Origin: a virus
DNA: 20,738 nucleotides
IMG/VR virus record: IMGVR_UViG_3300020438_000348
Coordinates: 1-20,738 of that record
Direction: 5' to 3' (one strand)
Below the pieces are notes generated by a model, which did no database searches, was not told where the DNA came from, and was given only the letters and a program-made list of their open reading frames with translations. Shown here one piece after another: positions 3,442 through 20,000 of this stretch. The position numbers were made by a program, and so were the translations under genes. Each line of letters starts with the position of its first letter. Position 1 is the first letter of the stretch.

Positions 3442-3798
3442 ATGGGTAATTTTCAATTAGTTATAATAGGTATGCTCGTAATATGGTTTGTAATTGTATT
3501 ATTTTTTATATACATGCATACCGAACAACAAGTTAAAAGTAGAAGTAAAAAAATGAAGATGTCTTTTTTAAAATCATTAGTTAGAAATAGAAAACTCACA
3601 CCAATGGAAAGATTAGGTGCTCGAGTTGGATATATGGGTGCTGGGTTGTTAATAGCAGCACAGTGGACAATAGAACCTGCTTTATATATAATGGGTTTTG
3701 TTTGTATTTTATTCCAAGTTATAATAAGAAAACAATGGAATTTAGTCGCTCTTAATTTAAATGGTTTATTTGCTTGGTTAAAACATTTTTTCTTTTAA
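3442..3798 (+). CDS. Small phage membrane protein
   Basis: A 118-residue protein with three likely membrane segments: about residues 5-24 (VIIGMLVIWFVIVLFFIYM), 62-77 (ARVGYMGAGLLIAAQW) and 81-94 (ALYIMGFVCILFQV). A basic stretch (KSRSKKMKMS, 33-42) and RNRKLTPMERLG between the first two helices should face the cytoplasm. The C-terminus (LNGLFAWLKHFFF) is amphipathic and very hydrophobic. No family is recognised. A holin or host-membrane modifier is possible, but no lysis gene lies next to it, so I do not assign one. A TACGTTTA element lies at 3421-3428, 13 bases before the start, without a good TTG partner. Confidence 0.75.
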   Translation: MGNFQLVIIGMLVIWFVIVLFFIYMHTEQQVKSRSKKMKMSFLKSLVRNRKLTPMERLGARVGYMGAGLLIAAQWTIEPALYIMGFVCILFQVIIRKQWNLVALNLNGLFAWLKHFFF

Positions 3799-3808
3799 CA
3801 AAATACAC

Positions 3809-3832
3809 CGCGTATATGCGCATTATCGCGCG
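3809..3832. other. CGCG-rich segment in intergenic region
   Basis: CGCG ends flank the palindrome ATGCGCAT in a 206-base gap (3799-4004). It has the same CpG-dense style as the gene-free regions at 1-391 and 779-1411, and the DNA on either side is strongly AT-rich. Apart from the late-type motif at 3954, I see nothing else defined in this gap. Confidence 0.35.
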
Positions 3833-3953
3833 TTATATAGCATAATAATTTAGTTTTATAATGGTTGTGAACATAAGAGTAATATATGTTTATATCAAAT
3901 ATGAGATTTTTTAATCTTTTATGTAATATCTTATACTATTCAGGAAAAAATTA

Positions 3954-3961
3954 ATATTTAT
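3954..3961 (+). promoter_or_regulatory. Late-type motif upstream of coiled-coil gene
   Basis: TTAATATTTATT centred 45 bases before the ATG at 4005, with no TTG at the host-promoter spacing. It shares the ATATTTAT core with the sites before 1412, 6875, 9517 and 12392. Confidence 0.4.
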
Positions 3962-4004
3962 TAATGAGGTAACCTTATTTAAAACTAAAAAAAACACACA
4001 CATT

Positions 4005-6596
4005 ATGGCCGACCCAGGAGAAAACACATTTAACGTAGAAGGAGTAATTCAATCTTCTTTTGTTAGTTTAACATTATTAAATACTGCTGAAAGTAGAATG
4101 AAAGCAGCACAAGAAGAAAAAGATACTTATCAAGCAGAATTTGAAGCTTTATCAGCAGATCAAAATGAGAAATTAAGACAAATAACAGAATTAAACAAAG
4201 AAATTAATAGTTTCTCTAGATTGCTAACTGATAATAGAGATTCTTTAGAAACTTTAGAAAGAGAAAAAGACAAGAATGAAAAAAGAAGAGATGAAATTCA
4301 AAAAATCTTAGATCTTGCAGAAGAAGGTGATGAGAGAATCCCAGTTCTTGAAAAAGAATTAGAGGATTTAGAAAATAGACATAGTGCATTAAAAGATTTA
4401 ATTTCGGATACAAAATCATCTATAAAAGAAATTGAAAGTGAAATCTCTGATAAGACACAATTAAGAGAAGATTTAACTGCTGTTTCAAATGAACTAGCAG
4501 GTCAAATTAGAGAAACAGGTAATAAATTAGCAGCAGCTGAAACTACATTAATTGAAGCTACCCAATTATATAATGGGTATTATGAAACTTATTCATTTCA
4601 ACAAAGTCAAATTGTTTCTATAACATCAGTAGTAGATGATCCTGTTAACAATTTGGTAAATTCTATTGTTAATAAGGGTGTTTCTTTAGATTCCCAAATT
4701 GAAGCTAAAAATAATAAAATAAGTGAGCTTGAAAGTAAAAGAGGTGAGTTAGGTGATAAAAGGAATTCATGTGAAGAAAAACAATTAGACTCTGATATAG
4801 CTTCTAGTTTAACTGAAACATTTGAGGTTTGGGAGGTGAGATTTAATAATGAATTAAAAGCTTTTATAAAATTAATAGAATTAAAGATAAGAGGATATAG
4901 AGCCCAACATGAAGGGAATATTCCATCTGAAAATAAAAAGAATGAAATTAGAGAAACATATGGAAGTTATGGGGCTGAGTTGCGTGCGGCGTGGGAAGAA
5001 TATCAAGAAGCCTTAGATCGACATACATTTATGTTAAATCAACTTGAAACTCTTCCATTATCTATAGAAACAACTAAGAGAGAAATTGAAAAATTAACTA
5101 ATTTAATCGCGGGATATAAAGATTTATTAAAAGAAAAAACTAAAGATAAAAAAATATTAGAAGCTCAAATTCCTAGTTTAGAAGATCAAAAATCCGCAAA
5201 TGAACAAATAATAAGAGATGCTACTAAGTTTTTAGAGAAAGTAGGAAGGGATATTGAGAAAATGGGTAAAGAGCTTCAGGTTGAAGAAGCTGGTTTAGTT
5301 GAAGATAATGGTGAAAAAAGTAAAACTGAAGCAGATATTGCAACCCTTACCACACAAATATCTACACTTGAAAGTGCAATCGCAACATTAGAAACTGAAA
5401 TTGAAGCTATAGTAACAAGCATCAGTGATAAAAAAGATGAAGATGATGATTTACAAACAAGAATTCAAGCTTTAATTATAAAAAGAGATGAAGGTGGAGG
5501 ATTAACAGAAGCTGAAGCTACAGAACTAGCTACTAAAGAGGCTAGTGTTGAACAAATAAAACAAGATATAGAAGCTTTAGAAAAATCAAGAGAACAAAAA
5601 ACAGACCAGAAAAAAACCTTCCAAACAGACCTTGATAAAGCTAAAGATGATAAAAGTAGCGCTGATAAGGAACTTGCAGAAATAAATGATAACATAAGTG
5701 CTAGAGAAGCAGCAATAGCAAAAATAAAAGATCAAATTCAAAATGCGAATTCTGATGCTGCAGCAGAAACAAAAAAGAAAAATGATGCTGAATCTGAAAA
5801 TAAAACAATTGATAAACAAATAACTGAAGCTAAATCAAAACTTCAATTATTAGAAGCAGAAGTTGAGAGCCTTGAACAAAAATTAGTGGATAGTGAGGAA
5901 GAGAAAGCTGACAATGAATCAGAATTAGCATCTGAGGAAGATGAATTAAAAGAATTAACTGCGGATGATAATCAAGTAATTAAGGATGCTAAAAAAGATA
6001 TGGAATCAAAGTTGGGTGATTATAATACTAGAAAAGATACAATTGCAAATGAAGAGAAAGATAGAACAACAAAATCATTAGAAAAAGAAGTTAAAGGAAA
6101 AGTAGAATTAATTGAATTAACAAATACACTACTTACTGAGGCAAATAATATGGCTAAAGCTTTAATACAATTTGAAGATGCACAGGCTTTTACTTCTCAA
6201 GTTGGTTCTGCTATTAATTCTATGGTTAATGGTAGTAATGATGAAGAAAATATAGCTGTAGATAAACAACGACAGGCCTCTGATAATCTAGAAAATCCAG
6301 ATGGAACTAAGGTTAACTTTTCAGCAAGAGATGCTAATACAGAAACAGGTGCTGATAAATTTGCTATGACAGTAACTGGACCATTAATTAAAGAACAAAT
6401 AGAGAGAAATCCTACAGTTAAATTTGTTATGGTTCCAATAGAATTAGATGTTGCACCTGAAGAAATTGATACTTTAATACGTTTAGGATATGGTATTAGT
6501 TTTAATGAAAAACAGTTACGAAAGGGTGATACTTTTTCTAATGCTCTTCAAATGAAAATTAGTTGGGAAGTAGATTTAAATGCAGGAAAATCATAA
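4005..6596 (+). CDS. Giant coiled-coil protein of unknown function
   Basis: An 863-residue acidic protein. Residues about 30-210 and 225-710 are almost continuous coiled coil: long runs of Glu, Lys, Gln and Asp with Leu/Ile at heptad spacing and few Pro or Gly. Short breaks (for example VSITSVVDDPVNNLVNSIVN near 202-221) may be hinges. The last ~150 residues are different: an Asn/Asp-rich linker (SMVNGSNDEENIAVDKQ) and a compact mixed domain ending in MKISWEVDLNAGKS. No Walker A, ABC signature or SMC head is visible, so it is not an SMC ATPase despite the similar rod. A virion rod, tail fibre or scaffold are possible roles; none is shown. It has its own late-type motif upstream and a hairpin terminator downstream, so it is probably its own transcription unit. 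It starts MADPGENTFNVEG with no signal peptide. Confidence 0.85.
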   Translation: MADPGENTFNVEGVIQSSFVSLTLLNTAESRMKAAQEEKDTYQAEFEALSADQNEKLRQITELNKEINSFSRLLTDNRDSLETLEREKDKNEKRRDEIQKILDLAEEGDERIPVLEKELEDLENRHSALKDLISDTKSSIKEIESEISDKTQLREDLTAVSNELAGQIRETGNKLAAAETTLIEATQLYNGYYETYSFQQSQIVSITSVVDDPVNNLVNSIVNKGVSLDSQIEAKNNKISELESKRGELGDKRNSCEEKQLDSDIASSLTETFEVWEVRFNNELKAFIKLIELKIRGYRAQHEGNIPSENKKNEIRETYGSYGAELRAAWEEYQEALDRHTFMLNQLETLPLSIETTKREIEKLTNLIAGYKDLLKEKTKDKKILEAQIPSLEDQKSANEQIIRDATKFLEKVGRDIEKMGKELQVEEAGLVEDNGEKSKTEADIATLTTQISTLESAIATLETEIEAIVTSISDKKDEDDDLQTRIQALIIKRDEGGGLTEAEATELATKEASVEQIKQDIEALEKSREQKTDQKKTFQTDLDKAKDDKSSADKELAEINDNISAREAAIAKIKDQIQNANSDAAAETKKKNDAESENKTIDKQITEAKSKLQLLEAEVESLEQKLVDSEEEKADNESELASEEDELKELTADDNQVIKDAKKDMESKLGDYNTRKDTIANEEKDRTTKSLEKEVKGKVELIELTNTLLTEANNMAKALIQFEDAQAFTSQVGSAINSMVNGSNDEENIAVDKQRQASDNLENPDGTKVNFSARDANTETGADKFAMTVTGPLIKEQIERNPTVKFVMVPIELDVAPEEIDTLIRLGYGISFNEKQLRKGDTFSNALQMKISWEVDLNAGKS

Positions 6597-6621
6597 AAAA
6601 CAATAAACATAACATAAAAAT

Positions 6622-6652
6622 TTGGAAGCTCGAAAGAGCTTCCTTATATTTC
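6622..6652 (+). promoter_or_regulatory. Promoter-like match spanning the terminator
   Basis: TTG (6622-6624, within TTTGG), exactly 20 bases, then TATATTTC (6645-6652), as in P0-P4. Most of the spacer is the hairpin stem-loop. The ATG at 6672 lies 19 bases beyond. The TCG seen before TA in most other sites is missing, so this could be coincidence. Confidence 0.4.
6624..6650 (+). terminator. Terminator hairpin after coiled-coil gene
   Basis: GGAAGCTC (6624-6631), GAAA loop, GAGCTTCC (6636-6643): a perfect 8-bp stem with a stable tetraloop, followed by TTATATT. The T-run is broken by A, so termination may be incomplete. The hairpin also occupies the spacer of a promoter-like match (6622-6652). 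Confidence 0.75.
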
Positions 6653-6671
6653 AAGTATAAAATGTCATACT

Positions 6672-6863
6672 ATGAAAAGATACAAACCATCCTCAAGTGA
6701 ATTGAAAAATGAAATGATAAATAATCTGATATTTCTGCAAGAACAGAAGGAAATGTTATGGTTGTATCACCCAAGTAATATGGAGGGATTAAACCTTATA
6801 GCGGAATATGAAAAAATTACCGAACAAATTTCAGATTTGGAATTAGAAATTGATAAGAATTAA
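6672..6863 (+). CDS. Small helical protein, 63 residues
   Basis: The protein is largely helical and charged, with MINNLIFLQEQKEMLWLY (15-32) and a C-terminal coiled-coil-like stretch (EKITEQISDLELEIDKN). It has no known domain. The start at 6672 follows the hairpin terminator and the promoter-like element at 6622-6652. The stop is 11 bases before the next gene, so the two are probably cotranscribed. The codon pattern supports a real gene; the function is unknown. Confidence 0.7.
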   Translation: MKRYKPSSSELKNEMINNLIFLQEQKEMLWLYHPSNMEGLNLIAEYEKITEQISDLELEIDKN

Positions 6864-6870
6864 TATTTAT
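6863..6870 (+). promoter_or_regulatory. ATATTTAT motif before gene at 6875
   Basis: TAATATTTATCAAC overlaps the end of the preceding stop codon and ends four bases before the ATG at 6875. That is too close for a normal promoter unless translation starts at the internal ATG at 6887. It supports the alternative reading that the motif helps translation initiation, or it may be chance. Confidence 0.25.
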
Positions 6871-6874
6871 CAAC

Positions 6875-7306
6875 ATGAGTTTAAACATGGATAATATATT
6901 TTCATTATTCTCCTCAGGTGAAGAAGCTAATGGGGTTGATGATCAAGTGTTCATTAATTTTAAAGAATCACCTGCTTATTTCATAGGAATGTATAAGAAA
7001 TTAATATTAAATAATCTAAACTTTAACAAAAAGATAGTAAAATTCTTTAAGGAATCCAACTCTGATTTAGATGTTGATGAAATGTCTGATGCTGGAGAAT
7101 GGGTAACGTATAATAGAGCATGGCATTACATAAGTAAAATAAATTTAAGTAATGAAGATCATATCTCTTCACTAGAAAAACACAATGACCCATATTTAGA
7201 AACTACAGTAAAACTGGGTATAAAATTCTTTGAGGATGAAGAACAATATGAAAGGTGTGCTTTACTCAAAAAAATACAAGACATTTTAGAAGGTTTAAAA
7301 GGATAA
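6875..7306 (+). CDS. Unknown 143-residue protein
   Basis: An acidic, mostly helical, soluble protein. The N-terminus reads MSLNMDNIFSLFSSGEE, with an alternative start at Met5 (6887). The middle has ESPAYFIGMYKKLILNNLNFN and a WVTYNRAWHYISKI segment rich in aromatics (about 77-90). The C-terminal part (LGIKFFEDEEQYERCALLKKIQDIL) looks like a helical bundle segment. No family is recognised. It follows the gene at 6672 by 11 bases and is probably in the same operon. The end of the gene overlaps the upstream part of promoter P4, the TTG of which begins two bases after its stop codon. Confidence 0.75.
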   Translation: MSLNMDNIFSLFSSGEEANGVDDQVFINFKESPAYFIGMYKKLILNNLNFNKKIVKFFKESNSDLDVDEMSDAGEWVTYNRAWHYISKINLSNEDHISSLEKHNDPYLETTVKLGIKFFEDEEQYERCALLKKIQDILEGLKG

Positions 7307-7307
7307 C

Positions 7308-7338
7308 TTGGAGTCACACCTTTTTATTCGTACGTTTG
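7308..7338 (+). promoter_or_regulatory. Host-type promoter P4 (HD / late sigma operon)
   Basis: TTG (7308-7310), 20 bases, TACGTTTG (7331-7338), preceded by TTCG. The -7 element is a perfect match to the Bacteroidetes TAnnTTTG consensus, the best in the window. It would drive 7429-9480, including the late sigma factor, with a leader of roughly 85 bases that holds an 8-codon ORF (7362-7388) of doubtful meaning. Confidence 0.65.
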
Positions 7339-7428
7339 GGATACGGGTTTAGGAAGGAAAAGATGATGAAAGAAAATAAGGTTATTTAGGTATTAGGGTT
7401 TAAGGAACATCCTATTAAAATCAAAAAT

Positions 7429-7614
7429 ATGAACAAAGAAATTATTGATAGAAGAATATCCCAAGTAGAGGGATTAATAGCAGGGTTAAGATATAACCTT
7501 AGGGGGCAATCCACAAAACAAGAATTTGAATCTAATATTGATAAATTAGAAGAAATTGTTGAAGATTTAAAATCTCATTTAGAAAGATACACAACACCCC
7601 TCAGAAACGGATAA
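7429..7614 (+). CDS. Small coiled-coil protein, 61 residues
   Basis: The protein is basic to neutral and nearly all helix, with heptad-like hydrophobics in ISQVEGLIAGLRYNL and IDKLEEIVEDLKSHLERY. It is probably a small dimeric coiled coil. It is the first gene of the operon behind promoter P4 and ends three bases before the HD-domain gene, suggesting cotranslation. The family is unknown; small genes of this type are common in large phages. Confidence 0.72.
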   Translation: MNKEIIDRRISQVEGLIAGLRYNLRGQSTKQEFESNIDKLEEIVEDLKSHLERYTTPLRNG

Positions 7615-7617
7615 TAT

Positions 7618-8397
7618 ATGAATTTAACAGCAGAACAAATCCAATCTAATTGGGAAAAATTAATAGGTTATATTAACACCTACATTTCAGATCCTAGAAG
7701 TAAGCATTTACTTTATTTCTATAACAAATTCGCAGATCGAATTGTTATGATGCCTGCTTCACATAAAAAAGAATACCATAATGCATTCCCAGGTGGTTAT
7801 GTAGATCATGTTAATAGAGTTATTGAAGCATCTCTTAAAATATATGATGTATGGTGTGAGTTTGGAATGGATGTCTCGACATTCACTAAAGAAGAATTAG
7901 TATTTTCAGCTTTAAACCATGATTTAGGTAAAATGGGTGATAAAGATCATGAATCGTATATTCCTCAGACTGATCAGTGGAGAAAAGATAAATTAGGTGA
8001 AGATTACATGCATAATAAACAAATCCCATTCTCATCAGTACCCGATAGAGGTTTATTTTTACTTCAAGAGCATGATATTAAGTATACATTTAATGAAATG
8101 GTTGCAATCCAAACACATGATGGTTTATACGACCCAGCAAATGAAAAATATTTAAAATCATACATGCCAGAAACTAAACCCAGAACTTCTCTTCCATTTA
8201 TTATACATCAAGCAGATATGATGGCTGCTCGAATAGAATTTGAGAAGGAATGGTTGCCAAAATTTAAAGGTGAAGATGGGTTGGATAAGTTAAAAGGAAA
8301 TCATATATTGAATGGGAATAAGAAACAACCCACAAAAAACAAAGCCTTAGGTTCTATAAAGAGTGAAGGTTTGAAAAATATGTTAGATAAGTTATGA
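7618..8397 (+). CDS. HD-domain metal-dependent phosphohydrolase
   Basis: A 259-residue protein with a recognisable HD-superfamily core. His64 in GGYVDHV, the His101-Asp102 pair in ALNHDLGK and Asp200 in IHQADMMAAR are the expected metal ligands; His167-Asp168 may add to the site. Known members hydrolyse nucleotides or other phosphate esters, often nucleoside monophosphates or dNTPs, but the substrate here is unknown. HD hydrolases occur in many T4-like marine phages and may serve nucleotide metabolism during infection. The C-terminal ~40 residues are a Lys-rich tail outside the core. The start at 7618 lies three bases after the preceding stop; the stop overlaps the next start (ATGA), indicating translational coupling. 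Confidence 0.88.
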   Translation: MNLTAEQIQSNWEKLIGYINTYISDPRSKHLLYFYNKFADRIVMMPASHKKEYHNAFPGGYVDHVNRVIEASLKIYDVWCEFGMDVSTFTKEELVFSALNHDLGKMGDKDHESYIPQTDQWRKDKLGEDYMHNKQIPFSSVPDRGLFLLQEHDIKYTFNEMVAIQTHDGLYDPANEKYLKSYMPETKPRTSLPFIIHQADMMAARIEFEKEWLPKFKGEDGLDKLKGNHILNGNKKQPTKNKALGSIKSEGLKNMLDKL

Positions 8398-8678
8398 TTG
8401 GTTATATAATTGCAATATGTGTTTTATCAGTACTAGTCATAATATTTGGCTTTACTACTTTCAATTTATTAAGGAAAAATGAAAGAGCAGAAGATATTGT
8501 AGTTGGGTATTTAGATTACTTAGATAAAATATCAAGAGTAATTGAAATTTCAGATGAAAAAGTAAAAAAAATAGACATCAAAGGTTCTTTTAAAAGTGAT
8601 GATGAAATAGGTTTCTTTTTTGAACAAATCAAAAACATACAAGAAGTTTTAAACGACTTCAAGTTAAAAAAGTATTAA
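8394..8678 (+). CDS. Membrane-anchored small phage protein
   Basis: A 94-residue protein with one N-terminal membrane segment (about residues 3-24, GYIIAICVLSVLVIIFGFTTF) followed by a cytoplasmic helical domain. The C-terminal part, FKSDDEIGFFFEQIKNIQEVLNDF, resembles a conserved small protein I recall from marine T4-like phages near the late sigma gene; its role is unknown. The ATG overlaps the HD gene stop (ATGA), and the stop precedes the sigma factor start by four bases. The three genes clearly form one translationally linked unit. Confidence 0.78.
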   Translation: MIGYIIAICVLSVLVIIFGFTTFNLLRKNERAEDIVVGYLDYLDKISRVIEISDEKVKKIDIKGSFKSDDEIGFFFEQIKNIQEVLNDFKLKKY

Positions 8679-8682
8679 TCTT

Positions 8683-9480
8683 ATGGATTCCATTATTAGA
8701 AAGCATTCTGCTAAGAAACAGAAAAAGAACTATTTTACTAAAGAAACAGAACAAGCTATCGTTAGATATAATAACGAAAAAAATTTTGAAACACGTAGTA
8801 ATATATATCAAAAGGAAATTCATTATCCTTTTTTTAAATTAACTCAAAATATAATACACACATTTAAATTTTATCATACCGAAGTTGAAAATTTAGAAGA
8901 TTTACAACATGAAATTATGATATTTTTACTTGATAAAATACATCTATTTAACCCAGAAAATGGAGCTAAGGCCTATTCTTATTTTGGTACTATAGTAAAA
9001 CGATGGTTAATTGTTTATACTACAAAAAACTACAATAAAAAATTAAGTAATATACCAATTACAGACTTAAGTAATTACTCTAATCTAGACATGACATCCC
9101 CTTCATTTGTAAATTCATCTAAGATGGATATAGGAGTTGAAAAAATAATAGAGGGAGAAGCAAAAGACGAACTAGATTTTGCAGGATATAAATCATCAGA
9201 TAAATTATCTTTATTTGTTGACCAGTATGTAGATTATATAACAGATAACATTTACGATATTTTCCCAAAACCTTATGATGCTCAAATAGCAGATGCAATA
9301 TTAGAATTATTTAGGAAACGAGATAACATAGATATATTTAATAAAAAGGCATTATACATTTATATTAGGGAGCAAGTTGATGTAAAAACACCAAAAATCA
9401 CAAAAATAGCTAACATTTTAAGTAAAATATTTAAAGAAAAATATTTATCATATCTAGAAACAGGTGCTTTCCCGTCTTAA
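8683..9480 (+). CDS. gp55-like late-transcription sigma factor
   Basis: A 265-residue protein that I read as a T4 gp55-type sigma factor, which binds host RNA polymerase core and directs it to phage late promoters. The best evidence is residues about 65-112, which look like sigma region 2: the EDLQHEIMIFLLDKIHLFNPE helix, then AYSYFGTIVKRWLI, a pattern shared with T4-like gp55. The N-terminal YFTKETEQAIVRYNNE (17-32) resembles the usual gp55 start. T4 gp55 is about 185 residues, so this one has a long extra C-terminal region (about 130-265) that is helical and unrecognised. No gp33 co-activator or clamp gene is visible here. It lies directly upstream of the baseplate operon. Confidence 0.78.
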   Translation: MDSIIRKHSAKKQKKNYFTKETEQAIVRYNNEKNFETRSNIYQKEIHYPFFKLTQNIIHTFKFYHTEVENLEDLQHEIMIFLLDKIHLFNPENGAKAYSYFGTIVKRWLIVYTTKNYNKKLSNIPITDLSNYSNLDMTSPSFVNSSKMDIGVEKIIEGEAKDELDFAGYKSSDKLSLFVDQYVDYITDNIYDIFPKPYDAQIADAILELFRKRDNIDIFNKKALYIYIREQVDVKTPKITKIANILSKIFKEKYLSYLETGAFPS

Positions 9481-9495
9481 AGGTTTACTTTAAGT

Positions 9496-9503
9496 ATATT
9501 TAT
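9496..9503 (+). promoter_or_regulatory. Late-type motif before baseplate operon
   Basis: TAAGTATATTTATCAATAAA starts 26 bases before the ATG at 9517, in the 36-base gap after the sigma gene. Its -7-like TATATTTA has no TTG 20 bases upstream, matching the T4 rule that late promoters have only a -10 element. The ATATTTATCA core plus A-rich leader is shared with the site at 1395. Confidence 0.5.
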
Positions 9504-9516
9504 CAATAAAACAACC

Positions 9517-9858
9517 ATGGGAAATCTAGATTCAATTATATTTGGTAAAAAAAAATTCTCAGACATACTTGAAGAAATATACCAAAACCAAAAAAGACGT
9601 GAAGACCAAGTATCCTCCCTTATATCAGAATTAAAACCTTTAGTCCAAGAAATAGGTGATGCTACTTTAATAGTTCCATTAATTAAAGAATATATGGAAA
9701 TTGGAGTTAAAAATGATGAAGCTTTAATTAAAATGGCTACTATAATACAACGTTCTCTCCAAAATCAAGGTGAAGATGGAGGGTTAGGAATAACAGACGA
9801 AGAAAAAACCCAACTTTTAGAAGAAATGGAAAAACTCCAAAAGAATAAAGGAAAATAA
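9517..9858 (+). CDS. Unknown helical protein at operon head
   Basis: A 113-residue, mostly helical protein, with DILEEIYQNQKRREDQVSSL and LLEEMEKLQKNKGK as likely coiled-coil ends and a conserved-looking centre (LVQEIGDATLIVPLIKEYMEIGVKNDEALIKMA, about 47-79, in two parts). I do not recognise it. Its place between the late sigma factor and the spike gene fits a virion assembly or tail chaperone role, or a transcription partner, but neither is supported by sequence. It is linked to the spike gene by a TAATG stop-start overlap and preceded by the late-type motif. Confidence 0.72.
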   Translation: MGNLDSIIFGKKKFSDILEEIYQNQKRREDQVSSLISELKPLVQEIGDATLIVPLIKEYMEIGVKNDEALIKMATIIQRSLQNQGEDGGLGITDEEKTQLLEEMEKLQKNKGK

Positions 9859-11081
9859 TGGCAACACCTGGTAAAATTTCAACTATAAAAGATGGTGGAG
9901 GTAATTCCTCTAAGGGTCTAGGGTTATTAGCTGGTAGAGTTAGGAGAGTTATTTTAAATGCAGATGATTACCCTAAAGAATGGATTCAAAAAGGAGAATA
10001 TGCAGGGATGGGTGGTATATTTTATTCCCCTTTAGCATCACCTACAAAAAATATTGATTTCAATAATTTTGCTCTACCCTTATTTCCTAATATGAAGCAG
10101 CCTCCCACCCATAATGAGGTAGTTCAAATAATTGCTTTACCTAATCCTTTTTCTCAATTACAAGTTAATAAAACAACAAAATATTACTTCCAACCTGTAA
10201 ATATATGGAATAGTATTCACCATAATGCTATACCAGATTCTGTTTGGGATAACCTAAGTGGGGATTCTGCAAGAGATTACCAACAAACTGAAGCAGGAGC
10301 TGTTAGAAAAGTATTAGATGGTAGTACAGATATTCCTTTAGGGGAGACATTTAATGAAAAGATTGATACAAGACCTCTCCAATTATATGAAGGAGATGTT
10401 GTATATGAAGGTAGATGGGGTAATAGTATTAGATTTGGTTCAACTTCATATGATGGTATGCCTGCAAATCCATGGTCTGATGAAGGTGAAGATGGGGATC
10501 CAATAACAATTATTAGAAATGGTCAACATGAAGAATCAACAGACCCATGGGTACCTCAAATAGAAGATATTAACGAAGATAAAGCAAATGTATATTTAAC
10601 TTCAACACAACAAATTCCACTTAATGCTGCTAATACTAAATATTCATCATATGACAATGAACCAACGGTTCCTGATCAATATGTTGAACCTCAAGTAATT
10701 TTAAATTCAAGTAGATTAACATTTAATGCCCATTCAGATAGCGTATTATTAAGTGCAGAAAAATCAATATTTTTAGGGTCAAATGATTCAATTAATATAA
10801 CTGCTGCAAATAAAACAGTAATAGAATGTGATGATATTAAATTAGGCAATAAAGACGCCACAGAACCTATTATATTAGGTAATAAATTTCTTACAGATTT
10901 ACAAAACTTATGTGCCCAAATAGTGGCACTAGGAACAGCTTTACAAACCCCAATAGGAGCAGGACCACCTTTTGTACCTAATGCTGCTATACCTGTACCT
11001 GCTGTAAATGTGACACAAGCAGCACAAACAATGTTAAATAAAATTGAATCTTATAAATCAAAAGTAAGTAAAACAAAATAA
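9858..11081 (+). CDS. gp5/gpV-like baseplate spike protein
   Basis: A 407-residue protein resembling the central spike of contractile tails (T4 gp5, P2 gpV, VgrG-like). An N-terminal OB-fold-like region (about 20-150) includes VGRI-type strands in GLLAGRVRRVILN. Residues about 178-210 hold the EGDVVYEGRWGNSIRFGS block typical of phage gp5 proteins, followed by DPITIIRNGQ. Residues about 285-342 are a repeated-strand segment (LTFNAHSDSVLLSAEKSIFL, INITAANKTVIECDDIKLG) as expected for a trimeric beta-helix. The end (345-407) is helical and Ala/Pro-rich. No lysozyme domain is seen, unlike T4 gp5. It is coupled by TAATG to both neighbours. Confidence 0.82.
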   Translation: MATPGKISTIKDGGGNSSKGLGLLAGRVRRVILNADDYPKEWIQKGEYAGMGGIFYSPLASPTKNIDFNNFALPLFPNMKQPPTHNEVVQIIALPNPFSQLQVNKTTKYYFQPVNIWNSIHHNAIPDSVWDNLSGDSARDYQQTEAGAVRKVLDGSTDIPLGETFNEKIDTRPLQLYEGDVVYEGRWGNSIRFGSTSYDGMPANPWSDEGEDGDPITIIRNGQHEESTDPWVPQIEDINEDKANVYLTSTQQIPLNAANTKYSSYDNEPTVPDQYVEPQVILNSSRLTFNAHSDSVLLSAEKSIFLGSNDSINITAANKTVIECDDIKLGNKDATEPIILGNKFLTDLQNLCAQIVALGTALQTPIGAGPPFVPNAAIPVPAVNVTQAAQTMLNKIESYKSKVSKTK

Positions 11082-12358
11082 TGTTAGGTCCTATAATCAT
11101 AAAACAAGTAGTAAAACTAGCAAAAGGAACCGCTAGGTTTGATGCTATGGCCAATGATATGATAGCTAAATTTGAATTAGGATGTCCCCCTAAAGGAGAA
11201 CTTGAGAGAATAATCCAACAAAAAAATACAATAGTATCTGCTTTATCACAAGTATCGGGTGTTATTAATACTATTACTAAAATAGGCACCACATTAGATG
11301 GAATACTAACAGGTTTAAATATAGCGGTTAATGTTATAAAATTTTTACCCCTACCTCTACCTCCCTTTAGTCCTGCATTATTAGCAACAGGCCCTGCGGC
11401 TGCTGCAGATACTTTAGGAGATTTAGTAAAAGCAGGAAAAGGTGCGGTTTCAATTATACCTAATGCTTTAAAGCAAATAGCAGATGGAATAAATAAATTA
11501 ATAGCTAAATTAAATACTATTGATGGTTTATTAAATCCTTGTTTAGCAGAAGCAGGTTTAGATGGTTCTATAAATAGTGATGATTTAAGTAATTTATTAA
11601 ATACAACAGGTGCTAATTCTGATTCAGCGGTTAACCAAGCAACAGAAGCAGATTTATTAGCCCAATTACAGCCTAACTCTAATGATCCCTTATTTTATAA
11701 AGGTTACAAATTAGAAATTCAAAATGATCCTCAAAATGAATATTCATTTGCTTCTAGAAGAATTAAAGGTAAAGAAGGAATATCAGGAGTTGAAATTTAT
11801 AACCAACCAACTCAATCTTTCTCTTATTCTTCATCAGTTCAAGTATTAATTGATGAAATTAAGTTTAGGATAGACTTGCAACCCGCAAATCCAATATTAC
11901 TTAATGCAATTGCTAGTGGTAATCTAACAGACGAACAAATAGAAGATTTAGGTTTTGATCCAAGTTCTACTTCTGGAGGAACAGATACTTCATCTTCAGG
12001 AGGATTTGATACAGGACAGGGTCCAAACAGGTTTTTAGCTGCTTCTACTGTAGTGCCCTCTTTCCCAAATGTATCAGGTAAAGCACTTGTAACAACTCTA
12101 CCAGCAAAAGCTAAAATTACTATAAATGGGGGGAGAGGTACTGTTGGAGGTAATAAATGTTACACAACCGTAACTTTTGTTGCAACTTTAATTGGAGGAG
12201 GACCTAATGATAAAGTTTCAATAGTAAATAAAAAAGTAATCCAAAAAACTTCAATAACCACAGTTAATTTTTTAAAAAAAGGTAAATATGCTTATAATTT
12301 AAAGATAACAAGTCTTAGAGGTACTGACCCAAATAAAGCAAGTGTAGAATTTATATAA
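11081..12358 (+). CDS. Probable tail structural protein, Ig-like C-terminus
   Basis: A 425-residue protein of likely structural role. Residues about 45-165 form long Gly/Ala/Ile-rich amphipathic helices with a Pro-rich turn (LPLPLPPFSP). Around 205-275 is a mixed segment with YKGYKLEIQNDPQNEYSF and VQVLIDEIKFRID, which resembles structural proteins I recall from marine T4-like phages. A Gly/Ser/Thr-rich linker (about 295-320) leads to an all-beta C-terminal domain (about 330-425) with Ig-like strand spacing. Its function in the baseplate is unknown. It is coupled by TAATG to the spike gene, which suggests stoichiometric assembly with the spike or hub. Confidence 0.7.
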   Translation: MLGPIIIKQVVKLAKGTARFDAMANDMIAKFELGCPPKGELERIIQQKNTIVSALSQVSGVINTITKIGTTLDGILTGLNIAVNVIKFLPLPLPPFSPALLATGPAAAADTLGDLVKAGKGAVSIIPNALKQIADGINKLIAKLNTIDGLLNPCLAEAGLDGSINSDDLSNLLNTTGANSDSAVNQATEADLLAQLQPNSNDPLFYKGYKLEIQNDPQNEYSFASRRIKGKEGISGVEIYNQPTQSFSYSSSVQVLIDEIKFRIDLQPANPILLNAIASGNLTDEQIEDLGFDPSSTSGGTDTSSSGGFDTGQGPNRFLAASTVVPSFPNVSGKALVTTLPAKAKITINGGRGTVGGNKCYTTVTFVATLIGGGPNDKVSIVNKKVIQKTSITTVNFLKKGKYAYNLKITSLRGTDPNKASVEFI

Positions 12359-12375
12359 AAAAACATAATAATTTA

Positions 12376-12383
12376 ATATTTAT
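12376..12383 (+). promoter_or_regulatory. Late-type motif before gene at 12392
   Basis: TTAATATTTATAAG lies eight bases before the ATG at 12392, in the only real gap (33 bases) in the first part of the baseplate operon. There is no TTG at the host spacing. The short distance to the ATG leaves a translational role possible. Confidence 0.4.
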
Positions 12384-12391
12384 AAGAAAAA

Positions 12392-12724
12392 ATGAAGTCC
12401 ACAGAATTAAAAAAGATGATAAAAGAAGCCGTAAAGGAAGCAATCCAAGAAGAACTTAAAGAAGTTCTTTTAGAGGCTGTACGATCTCCAAAACAATCCC
12501 TGCCTTCACCAGTTGTAGAAAGTAAACAACCAATGGTACAAAGTAAATCATTAGCTGATAAAAGAAATTTGTATGAACAGGCGTTAGGAGAAACTCAAAT
12601 GAATTTTACTTCAAAAGATGTCCCTGGAAATTTTAACCCTCAAGCAGGTTATGATTCCGCAAATGGAACTTTACCACAAGGTGAATTAGGGTTAGATCAA
12701 ATAGCAAATTTTATACCTAGATAA
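12392..12724 (+). CDS. Small baseplate-region protein, 110 residues
   Basis: The first 30 residues are a charged helix (LKKMIKEAVKEAIQEELKEV), followed by a Pro/Ser/Gln-rich, probably disordered middle and a C-terminal segment with FNPQAGYDSANGTLPQGELG. No family is recognised. It has its own late-type motif and a TAATG overlap with the gp25-like gene, so it is translated together with the wedge genes. It may be a minor wedge component or assembly factor; this is inferred only from position. Confidence 0.72.
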   Translation: MKSTELKKMIKEAVKEAIQEELKEVLLEAVRSPKQSLPSPVVESKQPMVQSKSLADKRNLYEQALGETQMNFTSKDVPGNFNPQAGYDSANGTLPQGELGLDQIANFIPR

Positions 12725-13131
12725 TGGCTCAAATTATTTCAAATAAAAACCCTATTGATTTAGAAAAAAGAAAAGCTATTGGTTTTGGTTTTCCTTTAAA
12801 TGCAAATGCTGTGTTTAGACCAACTTATCAAACAAAAGACCAAATTCAAGCAGATTTAATAAATTTTTGTTTAACTAATACTGGAGAGAGGGTTTTTAAT
12901 CCAAATTTTGGTTTAGATTTAAGGGCTCTTTTATTTGAAAATGTAACTAATTCAACTTTAGATCAAATGAAAGAAATAGTATCTACAGGAATTAATAATA
13001 GTTTTCCTCAAATTGAAATAAAACAATTAGAATTCATTAATGACTCAGATTTTAATACAATTAACTTTATATTAAGTTATATAATTAATCCTTTTGGTAT
13101 AGAAGATGAACTAAATATAGAACTACAATAA
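12724..13131 (+). CDS. gp25/gpW-like baseplate wedge protein
   Basis: A 135-residue protein of the gp25 (GPW_gp25, lysozyme-like) family, a core subunit of contractile-tail baseplate wedges. The family signature is visible in the central part: IQADLINFCLTNTGERVFNPNFG (about 41-63, in two segments), then LDLRALLFEN and the helix TLDQMKEIVSTGI, then paired strands ending ELNIELQ. Length is close to the usual 120-140. Known homologues are structural and not enzymatic. It lies directly before the gp6/gpJ-like gene with TAATG overlaps on both sides, the standard arrangement in P2-like and other myoviruses. Confidence 0.92.
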   Translation: MAQIISNKNPIDLEKRKAIGFGFPLNANAVFRPTYQTKDQIQADLINFCLTNTGERVFNPNFGLDLRALLFENVTNSTLDQMKEIVSTGINNSFPQIEIKQLEFINDSDFNTINFILSYIINPFGIEDELNIELQ

Positions 13132-14993
13132 TGGCTGAATTAGATAGAGACATAAGATATATTGACAGGAATTTTAACACAATAAAAAATTCATTAGTAG
13201 ATTATACTAAAGCATACTTTCCTAACACTTATAACGATTTCACCCCAGAATCAACAGGAATGTTATTTATGGAAATGACATCATACGTTGGTGATGTTTT
13301 ATCTTTTTACTTAGATAACCAAATACAAGAAACTTTCATACAATTCGCTAGACAAACAGATAACTTGTTTAATATCGCATATATGTTAGGATATACGCCT
13401 AAAGTTACTACGGTAGCGTCTGTAGATGTTGACTTATATCAAACAGTACCTGCTAAATTAGTAGGTAATGAAAATGTCCCTGATATGGATTATTGTGTCA
13501 CTCTTCCAGAGAATACCACAGTAAATAGTCCTACAAATGCTGGTTTAACCTTTTTAATAGAAGACGTATGTGATTTTTCAGTTTCTAGTTCTATGGATCC
13601 TACTATGACTACTATATATGAAGTAGCAGGAGATCAACCAACATCTTTCCTTTTAAAGAAAACCAGAAAAGCAATATCTGCTACTATTCGTACTATTAAT
13701 TTTACATTTGCAAGAGCAGAAAAATTCAAAACAGTTGAAATTATAGGTAATAATATTATAGGAATTTTAGATTGTTTTGATACTAATGATAATGAGTGGC
13801 ATGAAGTGCCCAATCTAGCTCAAAGTGTAATAATGGATACTATTAGAAATACCAATCCAAATGATCCAAACTACTCAGATGACTTAGATGCTTCCTACCT
13901 ACTTAGAACTAAAGAAATACAAAGAAGATTTGTTTCAAGATTTACAGCTGAAAATACACTGCAATTACAATTTGGAGCAGGTTCAACAGGTTTAACAACA
14001 GAAGAAATTATTCCTAATCCTGATAATGTAGGTTTAGGTTTACCCTTTGAAAAAACCAAATTAACAACAGCTTTTTCACCTACAAACTTTGTATTTACAG
14101 ATACTTATGGTTTAGCTCCTTATAATACTACTTTAACTGTTAGATATTTAACTGGGGGGGGTATTATTTCCAACGTAGAAGCAGGTACTTTAACTCAAGT
14201 AAATGATAATGGTATTAAATTTAATAATCCAAATTTAGCAAACACATCCTTAGCTAATACTTCTTACCAATCTATAGCAGCAAATAATGTTTTAGCCGCA
14301 GATGGAGGTCAAGATGGAGATACAATAGAAGAATTAAGACAAAATGCATTAGGTAACTTTCAAAACCAATTAAGAACAGTTACTAAAGAAGATTACATGA
14401 TTAGAGCTTTATCTATGCCTGCTAATTTAGGGGTTATAGCAAAAGCATATTCACAACCTGCTAAAATATCACAATATCAACCAGGAGAATTGCCAACAAT
14501 ATTAGATTTATATGTTTTATCTTATGATAATCAAAAGAAATTAAGAACTGCATCACAAGCATTAAAACGTAATCTACAAACTTATCTATCCCAATATAGA
14601 ATGATTAATGATGCTATTAAAATTAAAGATGCATTCGTTGTTAATATTGGAATAGAATTTGAAATTATAGTATTGCCTAATTCTAATAATAATGAAGTAT
14701 TAACAAAGTGTATCGATGCTCTTACTGCATATTTCCATACAGATAAATGGCAAATAAACCAACCTATTATTATTAAAGAATTATTTGTTTTACTTGATAA
14801 AATAGTAGGAGTACAAACTGTACAGGATGTAAGAATTATTAATAAAGCAGGTTCTGTAATGGGGTATAGTGATTATGCTTATGATGTGTATGGGGCAACA
14901 TATAAACGTGTTGTTTACCCATCAATAGATCCAATGGTATTTGAACTAAAATTCCCAAATACAGATATTAAAGGTAGAGTTGTTCCACTATAA
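13131..14993 (+). CDS. gp6/gpJ-like baseplate wedge protein
   Basis: A 620-residue baseplate J / gp6-like wedge protein, which dimerises to form the inner ring around the hub. The N-terminus has the expected start with STGMLFMEMTSYVGDVLSFYLDN (about 44-66, in two parts) and FARQTDNLFNIAYMLGYTPK. The J-like centre has GGQDGDTIEELRQNAL (about 390-405) followed by TVTKEDYMIRALSMP, the conserved pattern of the family. The C-terminal region has long mixed strands ending in KGRVVPL. It is larger than P2 gpJ (about 300) and close to T4 gp6 (about 660). It follows gp25 with a TAATG overlap. Confidence 0.92.
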   Translation: MAELDRDIRYIDRNFNTIKNSLVDYTKAYFPNTYNDFTPESTGMLFMEMTSYVGDVLSFYLDNQIQETFIQFARQTDNLFNIAYMLGYTPKVTTVASVDVDLYQTVPAKLVGNENVPDMDYCVTLPENTTVNSPTNAGLTFLIEDVCDFSVSSSMDPTMTTIYEVAGDQPTSFLLKKTRKAISATIRTINFTFARAEKFKTVEIIGNNIIGILDCFDTNDNEWHEVPNLAQSVIMDTIRNTNPNDPNYSDDLDASYLLRTKEIQRRFVSRFTAENTLQLQFGAGSTGLTTEEIIPNPDNVGLGLPFEKTKLTTAFSPTNFVFTDTYGLAPYNTTLTVRYLTGGGIISNVEAGTLTQVNDNGIKFNNPNLANTSLANTSYQSIAANNVLAADGGQDGDTIEELRQNALGNFQNQLRTVTKEDYMIRALSMPANLGVIAKAYSQPAKISQYQPGELPTILDLYVLSYDNQKKLRTASQALKRNLQTYLSQYRMINDAIKIKDAFVVNIGIEFEIIVLPNSNNNEVLTKCIDALTAYFHTDKWQINQPIIIKELFVLLDKIVGVQTVQDVRIINKAGSVMGYSDYAYDVYGATYKRVVYPSIDPMVFELKFPNTDIKGRVVPL

Positions 14994-15003
14994 TAAATAA
15001 ATT

Positions 15004-15534
15004 ATGAGTTTAAAAAATTCTTTAAATAAAACAAATTTAGATGTAGAAAATTCTAATCCACAGGGGGGACCAATTGGTTATGGAGACCTTGATAATAATT
15101 TTGTACATAAATATAGCCCATCAAATACTTATTTAGATATAGTAACACGTGGAGGGGATGGATCAGGTAATATAAGCCCTAATAGAAGTCCTATAAGTGA
15201 ATTTGGAATAGAAGATACAAATCTACAACCAGGTAATATATTTGAAATTTCTTCATTAGATACTACATCAGATTTAGCTGGTGTGAAACAAGGCACTAAT
15301 GGTGGTCCTAATAGGTTTAATAATAATAGATTTAGTACTGTAGGTGCTGGAGATGGTATATATACTAATTTTAAGGCTTCAACTTCACCTACATCTCCCT
15401 CACCTAGTAAAGGGGTACCTATTAAAACAAAAAATGGTAAAGATTCAAAATCATTATTAAGTGCTTATTCTTCTGAAAATACTTATATTGAATCTATAAA
15501 TAAATTTAAAACCGAAAATAACGATAAAGTATAA
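15004..15534 (+). CDS. Unknown low-complexity structural-region protein
   Basis: A 176-residue protein rich in Asn, Ser, Gly, Thr and Pro, likely extended or partly disordered. It has no signal peptide. It contains GGPNRFNNNRFSTVGAGDGI (about 99-118), Gly-rich turns, and a charged C-terminus. It begins ten bases after the gp6-like gene and ends three bases before the next start, so it belongs to the baseplate operon. It may be a linker or adaptor of the wedge, as inferred from position. Family unknown. Confidence 0.72.
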   Translation: MSLKNSLNKTNLDVENSNPQGGPIGYGDLDNNFVHKYSPSNTYLDIVTRGGDGSGNISPNRSPISEFGIEDTNLQPGNIFEISSLDTTSDLAGVKQGTNGGPNRFNNNRFSTVGAGDGIYTNFKASTSPTSPSPSKGVPIKTKNGKDSKSLLSAYSSENTYIESINKFKTENNDKV

Positions 15535-17069: not shown

Positions 17070-20000
17070 ATGCCAGAAGTAAGTGAAAGTACTGAAATAT
17101 TAAATTTAAACCCCTCCCAAGATTTATTTAAAAGAGGGTATGATAATGGGACTTTATATACAGTTTATAATTTTATAAACCATGAACTAAAATCATCCCC
17201 TACAGATACTTATTTCCTTTCAGAAATATCATCTGATAGGACTGAAGTAAGGTTAAGTAACAATTTTCTTTCTAATGAAGAGATTGAAACTTCATATAAA
17301 GAATTTAAAGAAAGATTAGAATCTACTGATTATTTCGATGAATTTTATATTGCATTTGAAGGGAATAATTATAATATTGGTGTTAATTGTTTTTTAGATA
17401 CATCAAAAGAAAAATATACTGTTTTAGTTAAATTATATGATGCTTTACCCAATGCTTTTAAATTAAAAGATGAAGTTTATATTGTAACCAAAACAGCAGA
17501 ATCTAAAGCGTATAAAATAAATCAAGATTCTTCTAATCCTTCAACAGATAGTATTAACCCTAGTATTTTATTTGATGACGGTTTTGAGTTAGATAATCAA
17601 GCTATTATCCCAAATGAAGAAATTACAAGTACTTTTACACCTGATAAAAATAGTATAGAACTTTACATTTATGATGTAAATTTTGGTTTACTAACATCAG
17701 ATACTAATTTTACAGATTTTACAATAACAGGCCCAGGACTAATTGATAGCGATGCTGGTACAGGGGTATGTTCATTAGGACCTCAATTTACCACTCAAGA
17801 AGCATGTACTTCTGCTGGGGGTACCTGGACTTCTACAAATGGTGGAACTTGTTCATTAGGACCTCAATTCCAAACTGAAACAGAATGTACTGAAGCAGGA
17901 GGTATTTGGACTTCAAATAATGAATCTGCAAATGGAGCATGTTCATTAGGACCAGAGTATCCTACTAAACAAGCTTGTGAAGCTGCAGGGGGATTATGGA
18001 CCCCAAGTAATGGAGTATGTTCATTAGGACCACAATATACAACTCAAGCTGCATGTCAAGCTGCGGGCGGAATGTGGTCGTCCAATAGACCCGGTGTCTG
18101 TACGTTAGGACCGCAGTATACCACACAATACGCGTGTATAACCGCAGGAGGTATATGGCATAATAGTGAAATTTATGGTGATGCTACTTTCTTAAGAGGA
18201 CCTAATACTAATTTAGAGATAAAAGATTTTGTTAATAATTCTACAGTATATAAAACAAAAAATGAATTAGTTAACACCCCATCAACTGCATCTAAAAATA
18301 ACTTAGATTATTATTTAAATCAAAGAGGTGTTACAATCACCCCAGATTATTCTAAATTTAATGAATTTGTTAATTTTTCATCGGCAAAACAAAGATTAAA
18401 AAACTTTTATTATAAAGTTCAACAAATTGAAGCTTATGAAGATGAATTAAATATTTTAAATTCTATAAGTGGATCAACCTCATCATCTTTAACAGTAACA
18501 TCAAATCAATCTTCTATTGAAGGTCATATCACGAATTTAATTAAAAATTTTGATGGGTATGAATATTATCTTTATTATGTAGATGAGCCTTCATCATACC
18601 CAAAAACAGGATCTAAATTTCCATATGAATTAAAAGACACAGACTCAACAGATGTTTTAACTTGGCTGGGTAGTGATGATGAGAATAGTCAATATTATGG
18701 GGGTCAAATATTAAGTGCTTCTTTTTACGATCAAGATAATCAAAATTGGTTATTTTACACTATACCTGAATTTATTAGGGAGAATGAAGAAAATGATAAT
18801 TATCTTACTTTTTGTAATATGGTTGGTCAATCTTTTGACGAAATCTGGCTCTATACAAAAGCAGTCAGTCAAAAATCAAATACAACTAACCAATTAGATA
18901 AAGGTGTTCCTTTAGACTTAGCTCAATCAACTATTGAAGGTTTAGGATATCAAGGATTTGGAAATAACTATAATAATCAAGATAACTACATAGGTTTAAC
19001 AGGTGAAGATAATGGTAGTTTTGTCCCTCCTACTGGAAGTGAATTAATAAAAAATTATATAGCTATTAATGGTGGTTCTGTAATTAATTATTGGGAAGAT
19101 AATTATTCATTTACAGGATATGTAGAAGAATTTATTGAAGAAGGATTCCCTTATGCTATAGATAGAGTAAGTAAAGAAATTTATAAACGTCTTTACCACA
19201 ACATGGCTTACCTTGTTAAGAAAAAAGGTACAACAGCAGGATTAAGGCAGCTTATCAATATATGGGGTATACCCAGTACAATATTAAGAATAAATGAATT
19301 TGGAGGTAAAGATAAAGATAATTCTGATGATTATGATCTATGGTATAATAGATATAGTTATGCCTACACTCCTGTAGGAACACAACTATTTCCAAGTGCA
19401 TCAATGCAAATTCCATGGGTGCCTTTATTAAGAAATAAAATAGCAGATAATGCTAATATAGTACCTGATGGAATTTCATTTAGGTTTAAAACTCAAGGTA
19501 TTCCTAAAGATGATAATAGAGGTACTTATTATACTCAATCATTATTAGTTAAAAAATCAGATGATGATCCTAATAATACTGAGGTAGATTTTGGCATTAC
19601 TTTAACATACGAACCTCAAGTAACAGGTTCATATCCTGGAGCTGCACCTAATGAATATAACAAATATGGTACACTTCAATTTTATATCTCTGGTTCAACT
19701 GTTGGATCAGGTAATGGTAGTTATTTTACAGGTTCTAATGGTGGTATTTATTTACCATTTTTTGATGAAGGTTGGTGGACAATTTCTTTATCAAGAGATT
19801 TTCATGCATCAACTAATGTTAACACAAATAATACCCAATACACCTTAAGAGCTGCAAATAATATATATAATGGAGATGATGGAGATAGAATAGGATTCAC
19901 AGGAACCTCAACAGCAAGCGCTCAAACTGTAAATTTATATGGTCAAGGTTTATATGGTCATGCTTTATATGGTCCTGGTATTTCATATGCTAATGTAAAT

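Follow-up and report, generated by a model that had tools for sequence, protein, structure and literature searches.

An orphan gene for a coiled-coil-rich protein in a variable cargo interval of a marine Far-T4-like Bacteroidota phage

PeSL-bounded cassettes and ORFanage regions have been described in the variable regions of T4-like phages (PMC4503421), and published phages of the Far-T4 group have been assigned to marine Bacteroidetes (PMC7198788). Fibritin (Wac), the collar whisker protein of T4, is a parallel trimer made up of a short N-terminus, an interrupted coiled coil and a β-rich C-terminal region (PMC3797505). The 863-aa protein considered here resembles fibritin in that a coiled coil broken into segments precedes a small C-terminal region, which is probably β-rich; it differs in that it shows no sequence match to fibritin, is modeled with an antiparallel hairpin, and is not encoded near neck genes. 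No counterpart in the protein to the conserved N-terminal neck-binding domain of fibritin (about 50 aa) emerged from PDB (E 0.01), Pfam or PHROGs searches, in which a far relative could be missed.

The gene lies in a linear IMG/VR record of 20,738 bases (the whole stretch of DNA analyzed, hereafter the window; its genes are designated by w and their start position, e.g., w6672), which by sequence comparison belongs to the marine Far-T4-like Bacteroidota phages. The gp6-type baseplate wedge protein of the window (13131–14993) shares 46.8% identity with its counterpart in Flavobacterium phage vB_FspM_immuto (Immutovirus) and 44.1% with the one in Microcystis phage Mel-JY01, and immuto matches the window in the order of its DUF932, T5orf172 and phosphohydrolase genes. 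Although they share this homologous wedge protein, neither the immuto nor the Mel-JY01 genome contains a homolog of the coiled-coil protein. Some related contigs are located in metagenome-assembled genomes (MAGs) of Flavobacteriales and other Bacteroidota; the Bacteroidota assignment fits these locations, the relatedness to immuto and the published Far-T4 phages, and the host is probably a member of the Flavobacteria. The locus is composed of the following features (window coordinates):

3442–3798, + strand: left neighbor, 118 aa, membrane-like; adjoins w6672 or w6875 in relatives.
3885–3941, no strand assigned: intergenic leader similar to the one that precedes the next gene in contig L005 (TATGTTTATATCA; score 45).
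3942–6608, no strand assigned: insert absent from relatives, as judged against L004 and L005.
3954–3961, + strand: late-motif core ATATTTAT lacking the conserved flanks (matrix and clade comparison).
4005–6596, + strand: gene for the coiled-coil-rich protein P0001 (open frame; phage-like codon usage, GC3 0.12).
6624–6643, no strand assigned: terminator-like hairpin GGAAGCTC-GAAA-GAGCTTCC, a backbone element.
6672–6863, + strand: right neighbor, 63 aa; directly follows the left neighbor in L002 and L005.

The reading frame begins with an ATG at 4005, continues unbroken for 863 codons and ends with a stop codon at 6594–6596, which verifies the protein proposed in a sequence-only reading of the window. 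That reading was also correct in stating that no ATPase motif is present (the Walker A pattern [AG]x4GK[ST] does not occur in the 863-aa protein) and in placing the gene away from the baseplate cluster, since the first late-motif gene of the baseplate operon begins at 9517. GC3 and codon usage match the rest of the window; a comparison of late and early codon usage gave no clear class, with a slight lean (0.015 bits per codon) to the late side. The product is acidic (net charge −69), contains no transmembrane segment (best 19-residue Kyte-Doolittle mean, 0.99), and yielded no catalytic motif or family match. Sites of the gp21-type prohead protease are not enriched in it (6 vs. 3.8 ± 1.8 in shuffles). 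Internal repeats exceed shuffles in 2 of 5 segment pairs, as expected for coils, and were dismissed as a special feature.

By sequence, the protein is an orphan not placed in any family. Homologs were not found in IMG/VR (queried with the full protein, N-terminus, middle and C-terminus), in 51 further long related records, several of them 124–484 kb in length, or in about 800 genomes of the order or family of the MAGs that carry related phage contigs, and GTDB contigs and phage records gave nothing beyond generic coiled-coil matches; pattern scans of this kind reach fairly close relatives only and could miss a distant family. No PDB chain matched the sequence at E 0.01, Pfam and PHROGs profile searches returned only sub-threshold or weak coil matches, and NCBIfam and PADLOC returned only SMC-like coil matches, those from NCBIfam being far under the curated cut-offs. 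For the C-terminal region (residues 742–863), PDB, IMG/VR, phage-record and GTDB searches found no relatives. The profile matches within the coils, to SMC (E 8.5e-17), Lamassu LmuB (E 1e-07) and Wadjet JetC (E 1.4e-05), were set aside as generic, with SMC reaching 60 bits against a cut-off of 567 and PADLOC profiles coming without cut-offs. Other candidates that were rejected are an MCE/MlaD-like protein encoded beside an ABC ATPase (contig L099, E 0.003; chance coil similarity), a 102-aa ORF of L165/L176 that matches only in a low-complexity linker, a ubiquitin variant (E 0.053; chance) and CorA (E 0.0056; under its own cut-off). The earlier remark that no equivalent had been described is borne out by the sequence and profile searches, and no clear similarity to a characterized phage protein, such as a fiber or scaffold, emerged from the sequence searches.

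In all close relatives examined, the genes flanking the coiled-coil gene are direct neighbors, and these empty sites provide a natural with/without comparison. The 9.6-kb contig L002, whose gp6-type wedge protein is 87% identical to that of the window, lacks the gene and matches window positions 3565–3851 and 6609–15508 as two abutting segments with nothing between them. The gene is likewise missing from L004, L005 and L006, and in L100, L101, L102, L104 and L107 the left neighbor (83–95% identical) is followed directly by the homolog of w6672 or w6875. With L002 as the reference, the missing part extends from about 3852 to 6608; because the leader as far as about 3941 is similar to that of L005 (score 45 vs. 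best shuffle 40, i.e., barely above shuffles), the insert relative to L004 and L005 is taken to be about 3942–6608, scarcely larger than the gene itself. Either gain in the window lineage or loss in L002 fits the comparison, and the two cannot be told apart. No independent contig spanning the gene was found among related contigs; an assembly artifact is nevertheless unlikely because the composition of the insert matches that of the backbone. Contig L003, from another data set, is 99.92% identical to the window over 13.8 kb and begins at window position 6933, 325 bases past the right edge of the insert; the population may be mixed for the coiled-coil gene, or these may be mere contig ends.

The insert has the DUF932/T5orf172 genes on one side and the HD-phosphohydrolase/sigma/baseplate block on the other, and lies in an interval of variable content. 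Of the 24 loci whose upstream sequence is long enough, 15 have, within the 4.5 kb before w7618, an ORF other than DUF932 that reaches 250 aa or more, and the cargo in the same interval of relatives includes UvdE (UV endonuclease), DNA ligase, carbamoyltransferase, CHU_C proteins, RecA-like ATPases and DUF285. Judged from this gene content, the interval serves as a site for cargo, comparable to the variable regions of other T4-like phages; the coiled-coil gene is very probably accessory cargo, and its patchy distribution indicates that it is optional. As in T4-type hypervariable cargo and morons, a gene-sized insert is located between genes that adjoin each other in relatives, by a stem-loop and at a place of changing content. 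Unlike morons, the gene has a composition like that of the backbone (GC3 0.12) rather than a foreign one, it lacks a clear promoter of its own, and the stem-loop is common to phages without the gene and so is not a terminator belonging to it. An orphan gene in a variable cargo interval of a T4-like phage is a familiar kind of event of which many are known, and the interval offers a defined place to seek host-interaction genes in an abundant, little-cultured group of marine phages. The cargo proteins at L029:423-2522, L081:206-1411, L072:1838-3064 and L076:1804-3009 have at their C-terminal ends the CHU_C sorting domain of type IX secretion, which serves bacteria as an export signal and would not be expected in phage proteins.

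The expression class of genes in this clade can be approached from sequence, as the clade has a late-promoter-like motif. Among 8-mers ahead of orthologous gene starts, ATATTTAT shows the strongest enrichment, preceding w9517 in 48 of 48 loci, w12392 in 46 of 46, and 5 of 6 homologs of w1412, a set outside the training of the matrix. Extended to ATATTTAT[A/C]A-nn-AAAA, it is located 12–26 bases ahead of the start (loci including orthologous positions in L002–L081). Because this extended motif precedes the baseplate operon and a gene with similarity to sigma-70 region 2 (8683–9480) lies upstream, it is probably the late promoter of the clade. It differs from the late promoter motif of T4, which is TATAAATA. 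The sites used as yardsticks are:

9496–9503, + strand: good match to the late-promoter-like motif, ahead of the baseplate operon.
12376–12383 and 1395–1402, + strand: further late-motif sites, before w12392 and w1412, respectively.

The sigma-like gene at 8683–9480 encodes a 265-aa protein that is 65–96% conserved among relatives and, from its weak region 2 similarity, is a candidate late sigma factor (gp55-like). The 120-aa protein encoded at 1412–1774, unassigned to a family, has a strong late-motif match among nonstructural genes; its homologs vary in length from about 120 to 231 aa.

Measured against these sites, the signals around the coiled-coil gene are incomplete. At 3954, 51 bases from the gene start, the 8-base core is present without a mismatch; the site carries a T where 99% of sites have an A, lacks the A-run, and scores −2.3 on the clade matrix, as compared with at least 12.7 at all 79 training sites. 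As proof that the gene is late, this core was rejected on these grounds, and from so weak a motif it is not evident that the gene is expressed together with the virion genes; the core could be functional, which would then suggest a role in the virion or in assembly. The hairpin at 6624–6643 has a perfect 8-bp stem and a GAAA loop (−14.5 kcal/mol), and it belongs to the backbone because it is identical in L002 and L104, both of which lack the gene. Of the earlier description of the gene as bounded by a late-type motif and a terminator, the hairpin and the exact core are real, but the late flanks are missing and the hairpin is not specific to the gene; the proposal that the gene forms its own transcription unit is thus unsupported.

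The protein can be divided into four regions:

4035–4631, + strand: residues 11–209, N-terminal helix pair modeled as an antiparallel hairpin (AlphaFold, heptads, PDB superposition).
4632–4928, + strand: residues 210–308, helical at low confidence, no significant heptads (heptad scan, AlphaFold).
4929–6227, + strand: residues 309–741, segmented helical region with clear heptads only to about residue 448 (heptad scan, AlphaFold).
6228–6593, + strand: residues 742–863, C-terminal region, probably β-rich, with no detectable relatives (low-pLDDT models).

Heptad periodicity of hydrophobicity exceeds that of shuffles at residues ~29–196 and ~309–448, is absent at ~225–308, and is mostly not significant at ~421–700, so that the earlier estimate of about 680 residues of nearly continuous coiled coil holds clearly for the first two stretches and weakly or not at all for the remainder. 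The AlphaFold model, predicted as a single chain from a single sequence without relatives (mean pLDDT 57), is almost all helix over residues 11–741, with breaks at 105–111, 210–212, 257–258, 303–308, 350–353, 389–391, 431–438, 496–501 and 589–594. Its N-terminal hairpin is formed by helices 11–104 and 112–209 with a turn at 105–111 (pLDDT mostly 85–91) and is about 14 nm long. A length of about 100 nm would be reached by 680 residues only as one unbroken helix. The single rod of that length considered in the sequence-only reading is unlikely because of the repeated helix breaks and the modeled hairpin, the longest predicted helices being 94–147 residues (14–22 nm); the model is no more than suggestive of an antiparallel hairpin in place of a rod, as single-chain modeling may fold back a long helix. 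A distinct C-terminal domain had also been proposed, and structure prediction for it called for: a β-rich region was obtained at about residues 742–863, but its models are poor (pLDDT 47 alone and about 30–40 in the full-length protein). A fold search of the PDB with the model gave no match at E below 0.001. The best superposition of the hairpin is with the antiparallel coiled coil of PI3K p85 (8sbj_B; 2.1 Å over 151 columns), and SMC arm segments, CT398 and HP0958 also superpose well (none at E below 0.001). Tape measure proteins and a myosin-like protein rank among the best viral fold matches; with TM-scores (by query length) no higher than about 0.2, these matches were discarded as generic.

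A large helical part, a small C-terminal domain and the lack of a catalytic motif make it most likely that the protein works by binding. The reading we prefer, which we hold tentatively as a whole, is that the gene is accessory, dispensable and specific to its lineage, and that it encodes a non-enzymatic coiled-coil adaptor working in the infected cell. Taken separately, the chance that the product is such an adaptor is about even; its action inside the cell rather than in the virion, which is favored by the hairpin of the best model, by the weak match to the late promoter and by the lack of adjacent virion genes, is a possibility somewhat short of that. The product would be soluble and acidic, its helical arms (with at least one antiparallel hairpin) would space or oligomerize it, and the β-rich C-terminal region or the tip of the hairpin would contact a partner. 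Serving as an adaptor or scaffold for components of the host or the phage, the product would be of benefit in certain hosts or conditions only. An optional fiber or whisker of the virion, with the N-terminus anchored to the particle, the segmented coil as shaft, and the C-terminal β-rich domain touching the host or retaining tail fibers, is the main rival and a close one, less likely than the preferred reading but of real weight, since the short N-terminus, interrupted coil and C-terminal region recall fibritin (PMC3797505), a late-motif core stands upstream, and codon usage leans slightly late. It has to contend with the weakness of that promoter match, the lack of a sequence match among PDB chains, the distance from other structural genes, the absence of the gene from sister phages, and N-terminal coils that are modeled as antiparallel, as opposed to the parallel trimer of fibritin, albeit in a single-chain model. 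Absence from every close relative examined, which is compatible with an optional fiber, argues against an essential morphogenetic protein such as a head scaffold or tape measure; despite the highly helical and acidic character that it would share with phage scaffolds and the tape measure proteins among the viral fold matches, this is highly improbable, as those matches are generic and cleavage sites of the gp21 type are not enriched.

Intermediate-filament-like proteins have a long coiled coil and no NTPase motif, and these properties would suit a protein of the cytoskeletal type that builds filaments by self-assembly inside infected cells; frequent helix breaks, the hairpin model, the lack of a homolog and the absence from the AlphaFold model of a core helix long enough for a filament rod leave it only a slight chance. 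The protein shares with the arms of SMC/Rad50-type proteins (SMC, JetC, LmuB) modeled antiparallel helices, in which the hairpin resembles SMC arm segments, and weak profile similarity confined to the coils; it differs from them in having no ATPase head and unequal arms. The cargo-like distribution, the profile matches and the hairpin could together point to a counter-defense or host-takeover protein that binds and blocks or sequesters a host complex, e.g., an SMC-like defense or chromosome complex, by mimicry of coiled-coil arms. However, any long acidic coiled coil gives such matches, which here fall far under the SMC cut-off or, in PADLOC, have none; we consider it distinctly unlikely. A bolder form of the adaptor reading is a new family of phage multi-hairpin coiled-coil adaptors that would grip a host complex, possibly of the SMC type, through coil mimicry and a new C-terminal β fold, and that marine Far-T4 flavophages would carry as exchangeable cargo; this we regard as a long shot. 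Elsewhere in the window, the ORF of the baseplate block at 17070–20738, which is open at its C-terminal end, contains about five Cys-containing repeats of the type CSLGPQFTTQEACTSAGGTW at approximately 17750–18230.
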